A stretch of 64,000 nucleotides of DNA, from the NCBI GenBank assembly GCA_025462735.1, contig JAOAPC010000018.1, positions 1-64,000 of the forward strand. The letters run 5' to 3'. Numbering within the stretch: position 1 is the first letter of the stretch; each line of letters begins with the position of its first letter. Below, one piece after another: positions 29,013-44,410 of the stretch. Origin of the DNA: Acidobacteriaceae bacterium (GTDB taxonomy: Bacteria; Acidobacteriota; Terriglobia; Terriglobales; Acidobacteriaceae). The position numbers and the translations under genes are program-made. The notes beneath the pieces are model-generated. The model did not search any database. It had not been told where the DNA came from and worked only from the letters and a program-made list of their open reading frames with translations.

Positions 29013-30575
29013 ATGAGCTCACCGCCGCAAGCGCGTCCCGACATCAATCCCTGGTTGATCGCCGTGGCGGTCATGTCCAGCACGTTCATGGAGGTGCTGG
29101 ATACAACAGTTGTGAACGTGTCCCTTCCGCATATTGCAGGCAATCTTTCCGCCAGCACAGACGAAGCCACCTGGACGCTTACTTCTTATCTAGTAGCTAA
29201 CGCAATTATTTTGCCGATGACGGGCTGGCTCGCTGGCCGCTTTGGACGCAAGCGCCTGCTCCTACTGGCGGTGACCGGATTCACCGTGGCATCTTTCTTC
29301 TGCGGCCTGGCACCTACACTCCCAATCCTGATCATCTGCCGGGTGATTCAGGGAGCGTGCGGCGGAGGGTTGCAGCCGCTCTCACAAGCCATTCTGCTCG
29401 AATCGTTTCCGCCCCAGAAGCGGGGCCAGGCGATGGCCTTCTGGGCCCTGGGAATCGTTGTTGCGCCTATGCTTGGTCCCGTCCTTGGCGGCTGGCTCAC
29501 AGACAACTACAGCTGGCGCTGGGTTTTTTATATCAACGTGCCAATCGGAGTACTGTCTATTTTTTTAACTCAGGCATTTATTTTTGACCCGCCCTATTTG
29601 CGCCGCGAACGGACCGGAATTGACTACTGGGGAATCGGGCTGCTGGTGGTCGGCATGGGGTCGCTGCAGGTCATGCTCGACAAAGGCCAGGAAGAGGACT
29701 GGTTTGGTTCTCATTTCATCCTCATCTTGGCGGTGTTAGCAGTCATCGGGATTGGCGGGTTGATTATTCGTGAGCTTAAAGCTACCCATCCAGTGATCGA
29801 CCTCAGTGTTTTTCGATACCGATCATATGCCGTAGGTACGTTCCTGATGACGATTGTTGGATTCGTGCTCTACGGAAGTACGGTTCTGCTGCCGCTGATG
29901 ATGCAGGAGTTGCTCGGCTACACCGCCACGCACGCTGGGATCACCAACCTGCCGCGTGGCATGGCGTCATTCTTGTTCATGCCGGTGGTTGGGATTCTTG
30001 TCGGCAAAGTAGATTCGCGCAAGCTCCTGGCTATGGGCCTGATTGCCACCGCGACAGCCATGTTTTCGCTGTCATTTTTTAGCCTGGATGTGGGCTTCCG
30101 GAATTTCTGGTGGCCGCTGATGCTGCAGGGCGCAGGTCTGGGCCTAATTTTTGTTCCCTTGACGACTGTGACTAATGATCCCGTTCCGCGGGAGCGCATG
30201 GGCAACGCGACCAGCATCTTCAACCTCATGCGCAACGTTGGCGCCAGCATTGGAATTTCCAGCGTGGAAACGCTGCAATACCGTCATATGCAAACCCATC
30301 TCCATTATTTAGTGCAGCACGTGAACAGCACAAGCCTGGAGACACAGCAGAGGCTAGCGGGTCTGCGTCAGATGTTCATCTCCAAAGGGGCGGACACAGT
30401 CACTGCCACCCGGCAGGCTCACGGAGCGTTGTGGGGAATGGTGCAGCAACAGGCGGCGATTCTTTCGTACAATGACGTGTTCCGCTTTCTGGGCGGCATG
30501 TTCTTGTTGCTGTTGCCCTTGCTTTTGCTGATGGAAAAGCCGAAAGGGGGCAAAGGTCCAACCGTGGCCCATTAG
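29013..30575 (+). CDS. DHA2 family multidrug exporter (EmrB/QacA type)
   Basis: A 520-aa major facilitator with 14 predicted membrane helices. Motif A (GWLAGRFGRKRLLL), motif C (GPVLGGWLTDNYSWRWVF) and the motif D1-like SSTFMEVLDTTVVNVSLPHI are clear. It exports toxic compounds with proton antiport. No EmrA adaptor or TetR regulator is next to it. Transcription diverges from the PTPS-related gene. Confidence 0.93.
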   Translation: MSSPPQARPDINPWLIAVAVMSSTFMEVLDTTVVNVSLPHIAGNLSASTDEATWTLTSYLVANAIILPMTGWLAGRFGRKRLLLLAVTGFTVASFFCGLAPTLPILIICRVIQGACGGGLQPLSQAILLESFPPQKRGQAMAFWALGIVVAPMLGPVLGGWLTDNYSWRWVFYINVPIGVLSIFLTQAFIFDPPYLRRERTGIDYWGIGLLVVGMGSLQVMLDKGQEEDWFGSHFILILAVLAVIGIGGLIIRELKATHPVIDLSVFRYRSYAVGTFLMTIVGFVLYGSTVLLPLMMQELLGYTATHAGITNLPRGMASFLFMPVVGILVGKVDSRKLLAMGLIATATAMFSLSFFSLDVGFRNFWWPLMLQGAGLGLIFVPLTTVTNDPVPRERMGNATSIFNLMRNVGASIGISSVETLQYRHMQTHLHYLVQHVNSTSLETQQRLAGLRQMFISKGADTVTATRQAHGALWGMVQQQAAILSYNDVFRFLGGMFLLLLPLLLLMEKPKGGKGPTVAH

Positions 30576-30631: not shown

Positions 30632-30661
30632 TTGACAGCAACCTATTCCAGTTTTTATCAT
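30632..30661 (+). promoter_or_regulatory. promoter of the cysteine-leader/siroheme operon
   Basis: A perfect TTGACA (30632-30637), an 18-bp spacer and TATCAT (30656-30661). Transcription would start near 30668, only a few bases before the leader ATG at 30673. Confidence 0.7.
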
Positions 30662-30672
30662 CTATAGGCTAA

Positions 30673-30759
30673 ATGAATCTATCCCGCCAAATGCAGTGCC
30701 GGTGTTGTTCTTGTTGTTGTACGTGTGCCCACACTGGCGCGGGAGAGCGACTGACCTGA
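30673..30759 (+). CDS. cysteine-rich leader peptide (attenuator), 28 aa
   Basis: The ORF encodes MNLSRQMQCRCCSCCCTCAH followed by TGAGERLT. Seven of the ten residues 9-18 are Cys, six of them TGT codons. A ribosome translating this stretch would pause when charged tRNA-Cys is short. It is followed by competing RNA segments and an intrinsic terminator directly upstream of the siroheme/sulfate-reduction operon, so the peptide itself probably has no function beyond translation. No Shine-Dalgarno of quality precedes the ATG (AGG at 30667), and it lies almost at the predicted transcript 5' end. A second in-frame ATG at 30691 could also serve. Cys-rich leader peptides upstream of sulfur genes are known in actinobacteria; I know of no description in this lineage. 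Confidence 0.8.
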   Translation: MNLSRQMQCRCCSCCCTCAHTGAGERLT

Positions 30760-30821
30760 GAATTTAGTAATACCGGTACAGAAAAGCCCATCGCCAGTAC
30801 ACGCTGGCGGTGGGCTTTTTT
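30683..30821 (+). promoter_or_regulatory. trp-type attenuator with four pairing segments
   Basis: Segment 1 (30683-30689, CCCGCCA) can pair with segment 2 (30733-30743, ACTGGCGCGGG). Segment 2 can instead pair by seven perfect bases (30733-30739) with segment 3 (30792-30798, CGCCAGT). Segment 3 is also the 5' arm of the terminator (30785-30797 with 30804-30816). A ribosome stalled at the Cys codons (30697-30726) would mask segment 1 and leave 2:3 to form (read-through). One that reaches the stop at 30757 would mask segment 2, so 3:4 forms (termination). The pairings are seen in the sequence; the regulation is inferred. Confidence 0.75.
30785..30821 (+). terminator. intrinsic terminator upstream of the siroheme gene
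   Basis: A 13-bp stem (AGCCCATCGCCAG with CTGGCGGTGGGCT, one G-U pair) with a 6-base loop and six T. It ends about 20 bases before the first structural gene, which only makes sense for a conditional terminator or a very late end of the exporter transcript. Confidence 0.9.
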
Positions 30822-30842
30822 ATTTACCCAAAAGAAAAAAGC

Positions 30843-31439
30843 ATGTTCCCAATATTTCTAAAACTGGAAGGACGCCGTTGCCTGGTGGTAGGTGCCGGAA
30901 CGATTGCGGAAGGCAAGATTCGAGGCCTATTGCAAGCCGGCGCTTCGGTCGAAGTTGTCGCTCCGGCGGCTGTCCCACAAATTCAGGACTGGTTCGGTCA
31001 AGGCACCCTCAATTGGAAGCCGCGTGCGTTTGAGCCGCGCGATCTCGATCAAGTCTCGATTGTGGTGGCTGCTACCCCGTCCCGCGAGGTGAATACGCAG
31101 GTTTTTCGGGAAGCGCGACTGCGAAATGTTCTCTGCAACTCAGTGGATGATCCCGAAAATTGCGACTTCTATTACCCCGCAGTCGTACAACGAGGTGACC
31201 TGCAAATCGCGATTTCCACCAACGGCCGCAGTCCAGCCCTCGCGCAAAGACTCAGGCAGGAACTTGAGGAGCAATTTGGATCGGAGTACGAGTCCTGGGT
31301 CGCCGAGCTTGGCGAAGTGCGAAATCAGCTGTTCGCCGCGGACATGAACGCCGAAGCCCGGCGAAAGTTGTTGCATGAACTCGCCAGTCGCGAAGCATTC
31401 AATAACAGAAATACTGTGCAGCGCGGGAGGAGCAATTGA
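30843..31439 (+). CDS. precorrin-2 dehydrogenase / siroheme synthase N-domain
   Basis: A 198-aa enzyme that oxidises precorrin-2 to sirohydrochlorin with NAD and may insert iron. The Rossmann motif VVGAGTIAEGKIRGLL is followed by VVAATPSREVN and NSVDDPENCDFYYPAVVQRG, the hallmark of the CysG N-terminal/Met8 family, and the helical dimerisation part (SPALAQRLRQELEEQFG). It lacks the CobA domain found in CysG, which here is the next gene. The ATG at 30843 is preferred since the open frame upstream covers the terminator. The stop overlaps the cobA start (TTGA). Confidence 0.9.
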   Translation: MFPIFLKLEGRRCLVVGAGTIAEGKIRGLLQAGASVEVVAPAAVPQIQDWFGQGTLNWKPRAFEPRDLDQVSIVVAATPSREVNTQVFREARLRNVLCNSVDDPENCDFYYPAVVQRGDLQIAISTNGRSPALAQRLRQELEEQFGSEYESWVAELGEVRNQLFAADMNAEARRKLLHELASREAFNNRNTVQRGRSN

Positions 31440-32251
31440 CCACATTAGGCAAAGTCTATTTGGTGGGCGCCGGGCCGGGCGACCCTGAACTGCTGACGCT
31501 GAAAGCGGCGAAGGCGTTGCGGTCCGCAGATGTTGTACTCCACGACGAACTGGTCAGTTCGGAAATCCTCCGGTTAATTCCCTCTCACGCCGAGCTTGTG
31601 AATGTGGGCAAACGCGCGGGAAAAGAGAGCACACCGCAAGCAGAGATCAATCGCCTACTAGTGCAATATGCTCTGCTCGGATTTCAGGTGGTCAGGCTCA
31701 AAGGTGGCGATCCGTTCATCTTTGGGCGGGGCGGGGAAGAGTTAGAGGCGCTGCGGCAGGCCGGAATTGAAGTCGAAGTCGTTCCTGGCATTACCGCAGC
31801 CTTGGGTGCAGCCGCTACCTTGCAAGTTCCGCTGACGCATCGCGAGCTTTCGTCGACCTTGATTCTGGTCACCGGGAGCAGCAAACAGTCGAACCACATT
31901 GCGAACTGGCCCGACCGCTTGCCATCCAATGCAACGGTTGTGGTTTACATGCCGGGAAGCGATTTGGCGCCGCTCCAAGGCCGCCTTCTCAACTCCGGTG
32001 TCTCGCCTGCAACTCCCTGCGCCATCATTTCCGGGGCGACGAGCGAATCCGAGCAGGTGCATATCACCACGGTCGCGGATCTCGTTGATTCGCCGCAGAT
32101 GGCCGCGCCGAAATTATTGGTGATCGGCGAAGTTGTGCGTCTCGCCAGTCCGAATCACCTGAGACAGCAATTCCGTGAATACGCGTTTTCTCAAGACCTT
32201 GTCGTAGTAAGTCCCAGTAACACTTCCACCACCATGGAGAGTACCAAGTGA
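31436..32251 (+). CDS. cobA: uroporphyrinogen-III C-methyltransferase
   Basis: A 271-aa SAM-dependent enzyme that methylates uroporphyrinogen III at C2 and C7 to precorrin-2, feeding siroheme for sulfite reductase. VYLVGAGPGDPELLTLKAA, DVVLHDELVS, VVRLKGGDPFIFGRGGEE and VVPGITAALGAAA are the SUMT signatures. It starts with TTG, preceded by GGGAGGAG, and is coupled to its neighbours at both ends. About 20 extra residues at the C-terminus are unlike the core. Confidence 0.94.
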   Translation: MTTLGKVYLVGAGPGDPELLTLKAAKALRSADVVLHDELVSSEILRLIPSHAELVNVGKRAGKESTPQAEINRLLVQYALLGFQVVRLKGGDPFIFGRGGEELEALRQAGIEVEVVPGITAALGAAATLQVPLTHRELSSTLILVTGSSKQSNHIANWPDRLPSNATVVVYMPGSDLAPLQGRLLNSGVSPATPCAIISGATSESEQVHITTVADLVDSPQMAAPKLLVIGEVVRLASPNHLRQQFREYAFSQDLVVVSPSNTSTTMESTK

Positions 32252-32985
32252 GAGTCGATTTGGAGCGAGCGAAGGTGCTGGCTGAGAGCTGGAATCCTGA
32301 GGCAGTGTTGGCGTGGGCTTTCTCAACATACGGAGACACTGTAGCCCTCGCCACCGGGATGGGCGTCGAAGGTATGGCGCTGCTGGACATCGCACACCGC
32401 GTAAATCCACGCGTGAAGGTTTTCACCGGTGACACCGAGCTGTTGTTCCCCGAAACCTACGATCTCATCGATCGCGTAGAAGCGCGATACGGAATTAAGA
32501 TCGAGCGCCTCTATTCCGAACTAACGCCCCGGGACCAGGAGCGCGCGTATGGAAAAGCGCTCTGGGCAAGCGATCCCGACCAGTGCTGCAATTTGCGCAA
32601 AGTCGAGCCGCTGCGTCGAAAATTGTCAACGCTCGATGCTTGGGTGACAGCTATTCGGCGCGACCAGACACCCACGCGAGCCAGCATTCGCAAGGTTGAT
32701 TGGGACTCGAAGTTCGACCTGGTGAAGATCAGCCCGCTAGCCGACTGGACACGCGAAGCAGTCTGGCGGTACGTTCTCGATCACGACGTTCCTTACAATC
32801 CCTTGCACGACCGTAACTATCCCAGCATCGGCTGCACTCACTGCACTCGCGCCGTCCTGCCAGGAGAAGATCAGCGCGCAGGCCGATGGTCCGGGTCCGC
32901 CAAGGTCGAGTGCGGCCTACACGCGCCGAATTCGCAGCCCGCGACAGAGTTGGTGCAGCTTACGGCGGCAGCAGGGGACGATTAG
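32248..32985 (+). CDS. cysH: assimilatory adenylyl-sulfate reductase (CysH family)
   Basis: A 245-aa enzyme that reduces activated sulfate to sulfite with thioredoxin. Cysteine pairs C113-C114 and C196-x2-C199 are the [4Fe-4S] ligands that distinguish APS-using enzymes from PAPS-using ones; the catalytic Cys is C222 (KVECGLH). A GTG start overlaps the stop of cobA. Sulfite reductase and ATP sulfurylase are not in the window. With siroheme genes upstream, the operon supplies both sulfite and the cofactor for its reduction to sulfide and then cysteine, consistent with control by a Cys-codon leader. Confidence 0.92.
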   Translation: MRVDLERAKVLAESWNPEAVLAWAFSTYGDTVALATGMGVEGMALLDIAHRVNPRVKVFTGDTELLFPETYDLIDRVEARYGIKIERLYSELTPRDQERAYGKALWASDPDQCCNLRKVEPLRRKLSTLDAWVTAIRRDQTPTRASIRKVDWDSKFDLVKISPLADWTREAVWRYVLDHDVPYNPLHDRNYPSIGCTHCTRAVLPGEDQRAGRWSGSAKVECGLHAPNSQPATELVQLTAAAGDD

Positions 32986-33131: not shown

Positions 33132-34022
33132 ATGGACTTTGACCAAATCGTCACCTTCATGGAAGTCGCCAAGCTCGGCAGCTTCTCCCGCGCCGGGCAG
33201 AAAATCTTCCGCTCGCAATCCGCAGTGAGCGCCCAAATCCGGCAACTGGAGCAGGAATACGGCGATCGACTGCTCGACCGTGCAGGCAAGGATGTGACCC
33301 TTACGCCTGCCGGCCGTGTGCTATTCGCCTATGCTGAGCGGATGCTGCACATTCGCGATGAGTCTTTGCTCGCGGTCGCCGACCAGGGATCCATGCCGCG
33401 CGGAACCATCACGGTTGGCGCGAACGAAGCCACTTGTCTGTACGTGCTGCCCGATGTCTTTGCTAAATATTGCAGCCTCTACCCCGGCGTGCAGATCAAC
33501 ATCTATCGCAACTTCAGCTACAAAATTGTTGAGAAATTGGAGAATGGCACCATCGATGTCGGCATCGTTACCATGCCGGTGAAGAGCCCAAGCCTGAAAG
33601 CCCATCCTATTTTTCGCGATCAGCTTATGTTGATGGTCAATCCGCAAAATCCACTGGCGAAGCTCGATGTTGTTCCCATCAGCGAAATTGCAAAGCAACC
33701 CATGCTCCTGCCGAAGACCGGCTTTAGCCGCCGGATCATGGACAAACTTTTCCGCCCCTACGCCGACAAGCTGCAGGTCCGCATGGAACTGCCGAGCGTA
33801 GGCATGATCAAGAGCTTCGTAGCCGCCGGACTTGGGGTCTCGATTATCAGCGCAAGTTTCGCGCGCGATCAGGTCCTGGCAGGTCGCGTGAAACTGATCC
33901 CGATCAAGGGGGAGGAACTCTGGCGTGAGCTGGGCGTGGCGTATCGACGTGATCGCACTCTTACCCGTGCGACAGACACGTTCATCAACACGGTTCGGCA
34001 ATTGGCGGCAACATTGAAGTAA
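33132..34022 (+). CDS. LysR-type transcriptional regulator
   Basis: A 296-aa regulator. The N-terminal winged helix (FMEVAKLGSFSRAGQKIFRS, QSAVSAQIRQLEQEYGDRL) binds DNA, and the periplasmic-binding-protein-like effector domain starts at about residue 90. A TATAAT (33115-33120) lies a few bases before the ATG, giving a very short leader. It sits downstream of cysH and might control sulfur genes like CysB, but its effector cannot be read from the sequence. Confidence 0.9.
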   Translation: MDFDQIVTFMEVAKLGSFSRAGQKIFRSQSAVSAQIRQLEQEYGDRLLDRAGKDVTLTPAGRVLFAYAERMLHIRDESLLAVADQGSMPRGTITVGANEATCLYVLPDVFAKYCSLYPGVQINIYRNFSYKIVEKLENGTIDVGIVTMPVKSPSLKAHPIFRDQLMLMVNPQNPLAKLDVVPISEIAKQPMLLPKTGFSRRIMDKLFRPYADKLQVRMELPSVGMIKSFVAAGLGVSIISASFARDQVLAGRVKLIPIKGEELWRELGVAYRRDRTLTRATDTFINTVRQLAATLK

Positions 34023-44201: not shown

Positions 44202-44410
44202 AATGGCGTGGCCCGGACTGACATCGTTCGGCTTCATCCAGGCCCATGCGGGGAAACGATAAAAACCCGCGCCGCCATTTCGGTCCGTACGCGAAATTAG
44301 ATGCAGGTGAATGGACGGGTGTAGCCGCATCTGCAGTCATCACTTCCCAATGATGTGCTAAATCGGCACGTGCCCCAAGATTGGGACTAGATTGCGCAGG
44401 ACTGCGTAGT

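Follow-up and report, generated by a model that had tools for sequence, protein, structure and literature searches.

Does the short, cysteine-rich ORF in front of the sirC–cobA–cysH genes of an Acidobacteriaceae bacterium serve as a sensor of cysteine supply, and by which route would it act? A first-pass annotation of the window (the whole 64,000-nt stretch of DNA that was analysed) had proposed a transcription attenuator of the trp type. Having compared the leader with leaders of related genomes, we conclude that it is probably a ribosome-mediated transcription attenuator sensing charged tRNA-Cys. As judged from sequence, we put the probability of this reading at roughly 0.86, and the mechanism proposed at the outset is very likely right in kind.

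The leader and the genes behind it

The proposal placed three features before sirC–cobA–cysH: a promoter, then a short ORF of 28 codons, seven of which (within codons 9–18) encode Cys, and finally a hairpin. All three were present there. The features are listed below.

30632..30661, + strand: sigma-70-like promoter, TTGACA-18-TATCAT (−35 at 30632-30637, −10 at 30656-30661, 18-nt spacer)
30673..30759, + strand: leader peptide ORF of 28 codons, MNLSRQMQCRCCSCCCTCAHTGAGERLT and stop; near-leaderless if the promoter is right
30697..30726, + strand: putative regulatory Cys codons 9, 11, 12, 14, 15, 16 and 18 (six TGT, one TGC)
30696..30705, + strand: segment 1, GTGCCGGTGT, within the Cys codons; pairs with 30731-30740, core GCCGGTGT:ACACTGGC
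30682..30687, + strand: outer 1:2 arm TCCCGC; pairs with GCGGGA at 30739-30744
30731..30744, + strand: segment 2; ACTGGCG at 30733-30739 is the antiterminator 5' arm
30792..30798, + strand: segment 3 core CGCCAGT, common to the antiterminator (with 30733-30739) and the terminator
30784..30821, + strand: intrinsic terminator; stem 30784-30798/30803-30817, 4-nt loop, T6 at 30816-30821
30843..31439, + strand: sirC-like precorrin-2 dehydrogenase (NAD_binding_7, Sirohm_synth_M; TIGR01470)
31436..32251, + strand: cobA/sumT-like uroporphyrinogen-III C-methyltransferase (TIGR01469 above cut-off)
32248..32985, + strand: cysH-like phosphoadenylyl-sulfate reductase (NF002537 above cut-off)

The SirC-, CobA- and CysH-like genes are joined by 4-nt overlaps, and the identities first given to them were backed by HMM matches. 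Downstream of cysH, at window positions 33132-34022, lies a LysR-family regulator gene that is found in the same cluster at three same-genus loci. Its best NCBIfam match was a selenium-metabolism LysR model, below cut-off; the match to CysB was much weaker.

Predicted competing structures in the leader RNA

ACTGGCG of segment 2 (30733-30739) is perfectly complementary to CGCCAGT of segment 3 (30792-30798), which forms the top of the terminator 5' arm. This confirmed the seven perfect pairs that had been claimed for the antiterminator. The intrinsic terminator with six Ts was likewise as annotated: its stem (30784-30798/30803-30817) has 15 pairs and a free energy of −28.1 kcal/mol, with two Ts of the T6 tract inside the stem. 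A simple terminator scanner did not report the 30784-30821 hairpin. When folded, the 163-nt leader was more stable than each of 200 shuffles (z = −5.7).

The first segment required revision. A 1:2 pairing does exist, and the coordinates given for it were one base off (TCCCGCC is at 30682-30688, not 30683-30689); the contiguous part of that helix is only TCCCGC 30682-30687 with GCGGGA 30739-30744. As the main 1:2 arm we rejected TCCCGCC, the exact helix being intact in two of seven same-genus leaders. The best 1:2 helix found had 9–10 contiguous pairs in six of these seven leaders and 5 in the seventh. Segment 1 belongs within the Cys run (30696-30705), which is the better choice.

In ribosome-free window RNA, segment 1 favoured 30772-30779; 1:2 pairing was minor and 2:3 pairing negligible. 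We then placed a ribosome on the leader, assuming a footprint that leaves the RNA free from 14 nt beyond the first base of the A-site codon onward. With this footprint, the antiterminator would be freed by a ribosome whose A site is at Cys codon 9, 11, 12, 14, 15 or 16, but not by a ribosome that has reached codon 18 or the stop. Under the assumed footprint, the model thus agrees with the original proposal that stalling at Cys codons frees the antiterminator and arrival at the stop does not.

Conservation of the leader in the family

SirC was found in 20 of 41 genomes searched, own genome included. Among those 20, four genomes of the genus, the window's own again among them, carried a Cys run with pairing words and a terminator no more than 500 nt ahead of SirC. 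From these four leaders we built a covariance model, R1; at E ≤ 1 it matched 141 of 398 genomes from the family. We opened 105 loci, nearly all of the full-length R1 matches listed with E up to about 0.011. In 87 of the 105 the leader was followed by a sulfite/nitrite reductase-like, sirC, cobA or cysH gene; among the remaining 18 were G402, leaders that point to other amino acids and matches probably due to chance. The commonest order in the family was leader, reductase (about 567 aa), sirC, cobA, cysH. In the window's genus, sirC or cobA comes first behind this leader, and the reductase of the ~567-aa type had no match in eight genomes of that genus. One representative reductase carried NIR_SIR domains; its best models were nitrite reductase/NirA, below cut-off, and for this representative the HMMs do not discriminate between sulfite and nitrite reductases. 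The neighbouring genes suggest that the enzyme acts on sulfite.

R1 favours Cys runs, and two samples were therefore chosen otherwise. The first comprised 80 loci found through SirC, with titles mostly of Acidobacteria, Terriglobia and Candidatus Sulfotelmatobacter MAGs; they share species with the model-searched genomes, making this an independent choice of loci and not of organisms. ORFs with at least five Cys in twelve residues numbered 50 on the SirC strand and 2 on the opposite strand. A Cys-rich ORF stood at leader distance from SirC in 44 of the 80 loci and was absent at that distance in 36. The second sample consisted of 60 pre-reductase regions of the family, namely the next best reductase matches among those listed that had not previously been opened; it is not random, and at least two of its regions (G102, G423) had weak R1 matches. 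The right strand carried an ORF with at least four Cys in twelve in 37/60 regions, the other strand in 3/60. At this threshold 23 of the 60 regions had no Cys-rich ORF. In at least six of these 23 the end of another gene, seen by eye, lies directly upstream, so that the leader, if any, lies elsewhere.

For the analyses below we used 86 leaders: the 87 sulfur-gene loci minus G012 (an odd short match) and G263 (the contig starts inside the ORF, which was read as Cys-poor), plus G402, which was added by hand. In related genomes, then, sulfite/nitrite reductase-like, siroheme and cysH genes are preceded by a leader that has retained the Cys run together with its pairing words and terminator, as the proposal had anticipated. 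The sequence elements, their conservation and their linkage to sulfur genes are direct observations.

Promoter, leader peptide and codon use

The window promoter was the sole sigma-70-like match in 2.5 kb; 1.2 are expected by chance, making it weak evidence alone. In the family, 83 leaders had 70 nt of upstream sequence, and a promoter matching at least 8 of 12 positions was present in 79 of them (25% in shuffles), or in 76 at a threshold of at least 9 of 12 (5% in shuffles). The −10 element ended 6–15 nt 5' of the ATG in 74 of those 79 promoters, the commonest distance being 10. From this spacing, the transcript should begin within a few bases of the ATG; in the window, the predicted start of transcription is at about 30668. 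A conserved Shine-Dalgarno sequence was not found before the ORFs of the 83 leaders with enough upstream sequence. Most leader ORFs are thus predicted to begin a few bases from the transcript start, that is, to be near-leaderless.

Six of the seven Cys codons in the window leader are TGT; the five window genes counted contain 1 TGT and 13 TGC. The same bias was seen in the family, where TGT made up 410 of 615 Cys codons (67%) in leaders versus 173 of 1614 (11%) in operon genes. Slow codons may sharpen the response, and such enrichment would then be expected. In two leaders (G224, G302) the word CTGGCGC is retained in a different reading frame; what is conserved is therefore the RNA word and not the peptide tail.

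These data bear on the foremost alternative, in which the ribosome is arrested by the Cys-rich nascent peptide, acting as a sensor of metal, redox state or sulfide; the switch would then read chemistry and not charged tRNA. The peptides are indeed very Cys-rich (median 7 Cys at a median length of 29 in the 86 leaders), and the targets include rhodanese-type sulfurtransferases and a TauE-type exporter. Yet the spacing of the cysteines and their neighbouring residues differ among leaders (CRCCSCCCTC, CCCTCCCCACVC, CCCC), some family leaders are left with only 3–4 Cys, and the enrichment of the rare codon TGT is not predicted by a sensor of this kind. We regard it as unlikely. We now turn to the RNA structures.

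Covariation and folding across the family

The 86 leaders were aligned with MAFFT. The terminator helix was 95.7% paired; 8 of its 13 pairs showed two-sided changes, and none of 500 shuffles was as good; column shuffles ignore the relatedness of the leaders. On a tree of 74 reductases the terminator covariation was not significant, for lack of independent changes. The antiterminator was 91.3% paired. Its outer pair was U-A in 35 leaders, A-U in 15, G-C in 2, G-U in 2 and other in 29; it was formed in 54 of 83 versus 38.8 expected by shuffling, a value reached in 6 of 20,000 shuffles. For this helix, values above shuffles were obtained on three measures (cells changed, cells paired, covariation score); the number of pairs with two-sided changes (1) and of pair types (7) was no higher. 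On the tree, independent pairs were 0.6 for and 0.3 against, with few independent changes. Covariation of the antiterminator is suggestive only. The expectation of compensatory changes thus held for the terminator, against column shuffles, and is not established on the tree for the antiterminator. Terminator covariation and the folding geometry, like the elements themselves, were observed directly.

With the Cys run masked and segment 4 unmade, 2:3 pairing reached at least 5 expected pairs in 84/86 leaders, and the expected pairs to segment 3 amounted to 9.5 versus 6.0 for shuffled spacers. In per-leader shuffles the 2:3 pairing had p ≤ 0.05 in 31/86, a moderate degree of support. A 1:2 helix of at least 6 pairs was found in 78/86 (shuffle p ≤ 0.05 in 35/86), and 1:2 exceeded 2:3 in 54/86 ribosome-free folds. 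When segment 3 was swapped between lineages, mean energies for own versus foreign partners were −16.9/−13.6, −14.5/−13.3 and −16.6/−13.6 kcal/mol in three sets, an only moderate preference for the own partner. In full-length RNA from the stalled ribosome onward, the terminator won in 81/86. Since the terminator wins there and, in the window, is more stable (−28.1 kcal/mol) than the antiterminator (about −20 kcal/mol), antitermination must be kinetic.

The conserved hairpin also bears on a further alternative: the ORF would serve translation coupling or Rho-dependent control, and the hairpin would be an ordinary terminator or a processing site. Actinobacterial Cys leaders, in the accessible part of one report (PMC1262725), are described without conserved terminators and with a proposal of Rho. 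In our set, however, 159 of 166 regions (86/86 leaders, 53/60 pre-reductase regions and 20/20 class loci) contained a hairpin below −9 kcal/mol with a T-rich stretch after it. Within the alignment of 86 leaders, this hairpin is located downstream of the ORF and ahead of the first gene, and it shows covariation relative to column shuffles. We consider this explanation improbable, even more so than a peptide sensor. That the hairpin merely terminates the transporter-like gene (MFS type by eye) that ends at 30575, 57 nt 5' of the −35 element, with the Cys ORF a chance reading frame, can be practically dismissed, as the ORF is located downstream of that gene and upstream of the hairpin, was seen again at the model matches that were opened and belongs to a class of ORFs biased 50 to 2 for one strand in the SirC-chosen loci.

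Relation to known systems

Ribosome-mediated transcription attenuators of the trp type include trpL, hisL and thrL. The acidobacterial leader resembles them in its short ORF with putative regulatory codons, its predicted competing helices and its intrinsic terminator before genes of the same pathway: the ORF is rich in codons for the end product, and structure and T tract place a terminator between the ORF and the first gene. It differs from them in the amino acid, cysteine, in the near-leaderless ORF (by prediction), in its occurrence in Acidobacteriota and in its position before sulfate/sulfite reduction and siroheme genes. The trp-like geometry first proposed therefore holds in kind but not in detail: segment 2 lies inside the leader ORF and the stop codon begins 18 nt after segment 2, which is unlike the trp-type geometry.

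Polycysteine leaderless short ORFs of mycobacteria were reportedly described by Canestrari et al. in 2020. Accessible portions of further reports mention six predicted Cys-rich short ORFs in a mycobacterial genome (PMC9094748), polycysteine sORFs of mycobacteria (PMC13236596) and mycobacterial Cys-rich uORFs (Shell et al. 2015, PMC4633059). As far as those portions go, both groups have Cys-rich short ORFs in front of sulfur or cysteine genes, with several in a genome; the mycobacterial sORFs are leaderless and the acidobacterial leaders near-leaderless by prediction. Unlike the mycobacterial sORFs, for which the accessible part of PMC1262725 gives no conserved terminator hairpin, the acidobacterial leaders have a conserved terminator and conserved antiterminator pairing, and their Cys run lies mid-ORF and not near the stop. 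For cys/cbs operons of Actinobacteria, the same source predicts upstream Cys leader peptides, for which it gives no conserved terminators; these too stand before cysteine genes, in another phylum and with other genes downstream. In Rhodobacterales, according to the available part of PMC8632094, uORFC-8-2 before cysS has two tandem Cys codons and a terminator, and Cys attenuation is predicted. The present leaders are similar in having uORF Cys codons followed by a terminator. They differ from uORFC-8-2, which in that part is found exclusively before cysS, in their median of seven Cys, in preceding sulfur-assimilation genes and in belonging to another phylum; the window leader does not precede cysS, its downstream genes being sirC–cobA–cysH.

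Rfam gave no match at gathering score in the leader and six weak matches with E 0.4–4.3. Known Rfam families were excluded; Thr_leader, for example, scored 15.5 bits versus a gathering score of 55. Elsewhere in the window, at 44203-44278 on the minus strand, we noted a CyVA-1 RNA (Rfam RF02965, 57.1 bits). Attenuators have been predicted in Acidobacteria, almost none with associated functions in the accessible part of the source (PMC2965389). We found no report of a cysteine attenuator in Acidobacteriota in the literature searched, most subscription papers being outside reach.

Leaders elsewhere in the genome and in the class

A second model, R2, was built from the 86 leaders. It detected a second leader in the window's own genome (G000:C5:103721-103875, MSYTWVQKMAMCCCCSCRVSSGDRVQSS), preceding a 764-aa sulfite/nitrite reductase-like protein with NIR_SIR domains. 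In the class, 156 of 329 genomes matched R2 at E ≤ 0.05, some at several places. We opened 20 class loci, picked by hand from the stronger R2 matches and including the own one. All 20 had a leader peptide with at least three Cys, and all 20 a terminator-like hairpin below −9 kcal/mol. Outside the class, R2 matches were rare: of 199 phylum genomes, 16 matched at E ≤ 0.001, and ten of these, counting the window's genome, belong to its own family, the other six to further groups of the phylum. As a leader detector, the pattern TGYTGYNNNTGYTGYTGY was useless, matching 394 of 397 order genomes.

The target genes of the class loci were identified by HMM in ten loci and otherwise by eye. They encode sulfite/nitrite reductase-like proteins, CysD–CysN–CysH, TauE/SafE, SsuA-type sulfonate transport and rhodanese-type sulfurtransferases (best NCBIfam match 3-mercaptopyruvate sulfurtransferase, below cut-off). 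CysD had no match in the window's genome. A rhodanese was also found together with an SrpI-type encapsulin and a family 2A cargo cysteine desulfurase (L354, L355; G045, G106). The Cys leader peptide before the encapsulin cluster of G045 is MTFAGQMTGCCTACMCGTRVSSGMRRLQS, and its position suggests that the Cys leader at G045 and G106 could be the trigger for a sulfur-storage encapsulin. In a gp2 MAG the Cys leader lies directly before sirC (L252, by eye). In two class loci (L339, L340) an outer-membrane beta-barrel gene stands behind the Cys leader with no evident sulfur link; one of these two proteins was checked by HMM. At G148:C2 (L055:739-885) a short ORF ending ISCCSCCC-stop precedes an outer-membrane gene of the TonB/carboxypeptidase-regulatory type (by eye). 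This leader, a match of the pattern TGYTGYNNNTGYTGYTGY, was at first set aside; given the Cys leaders of L339 and L340 before a similar type of gene, it may be real.

Some matches pointed to other amino acids. Leader peptides such as MSMSLQNGKRITTTGIITSTRITCLLEAGIG, several of them Thr/Ile-rich, were seen before aspartokinase-like genes (by eye) at G353:C44:11310-11478 (L176), G265:C493:5612-5776 (L187), G362:C805 (L188), G405:C368 (L185) and G244:C451 (L184). These could be thr-type attenuators in Acidobacteriota. R1 also matched before homoserine dehydrogenase-like and acetolactate synthase-like genes (by eye) at G022:C39:191918-192085 (L155), G350:C1 (L177), G238:C37 (L180) and G221:C191 (L182), possibly further amino-acid attenuators.

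Discussion

From the elements described above we infer a start site, translation, stalling and a response to cysteine, in the following way. As transcription would start a few bases 5' of the ATG, a ribosome could load at once. If Cys-tRNA is short, it would wait on Cys codons 9–16 and cover segment 1; segment 2, ahead of the stalled ribosome, would pair with segment 3 once segment 3 emerges, the terminator would be blocked and sirC–cobA–cysH would be transcribed. If cysteine is plentiful, the ribosome would be at codon 18 and beyond, covering segment 2 while segments 3 and 4 are made; the terminator would then form and transcription would stop. After passage of the ribosome, segments 1 and 2 would pair behind it, keeping segment 2 occupied.

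At most of the opened family loci the same leader stands before a sulfite/nitrite reductase-like gene with sirC, cobA and cysH behind it, and related leaders stand before other sulfur-acquisition genes of the class. For this reason the window leader appears to be one of several codon attenuators that together operate a cysteine regulon. In Terriglobia, much of sulfur acquisition would then be organized as a cysteine regulon of parallel near-leaderless codon attenuators, with a Cys leader and a terminator for each operon, a reading to which we give somewhat better than even odds. In that reading its members would include genes for sulfite/nitrite reductase-like proteins, siroheme synthesis, cysH, cysD–cysN, sulfonate ABC transport and TauE export, and further the rhodanese-type sulfurtransferases, the encapsulin with cysteine desulfurase and some outer-membrane beta-barrel receptors. 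Elsewhere, such control of sulfur genes is exerted by CysB or CymR. What looks new is the breadth: a bacterial class appears to have a cysteine regulon based on codons, its leader genes being near-leaderless by prediction.

If true, this would mean that common soil bacteria sense sulfur limitation via the ribosome, with many copies of one simple device. It would provide more than 100 natural variants for testing codon choice, spacing and helix strength against attenuator response, and it would supply annotation for a sulfur regulon, outer-membrane receptors and encapsulins included.
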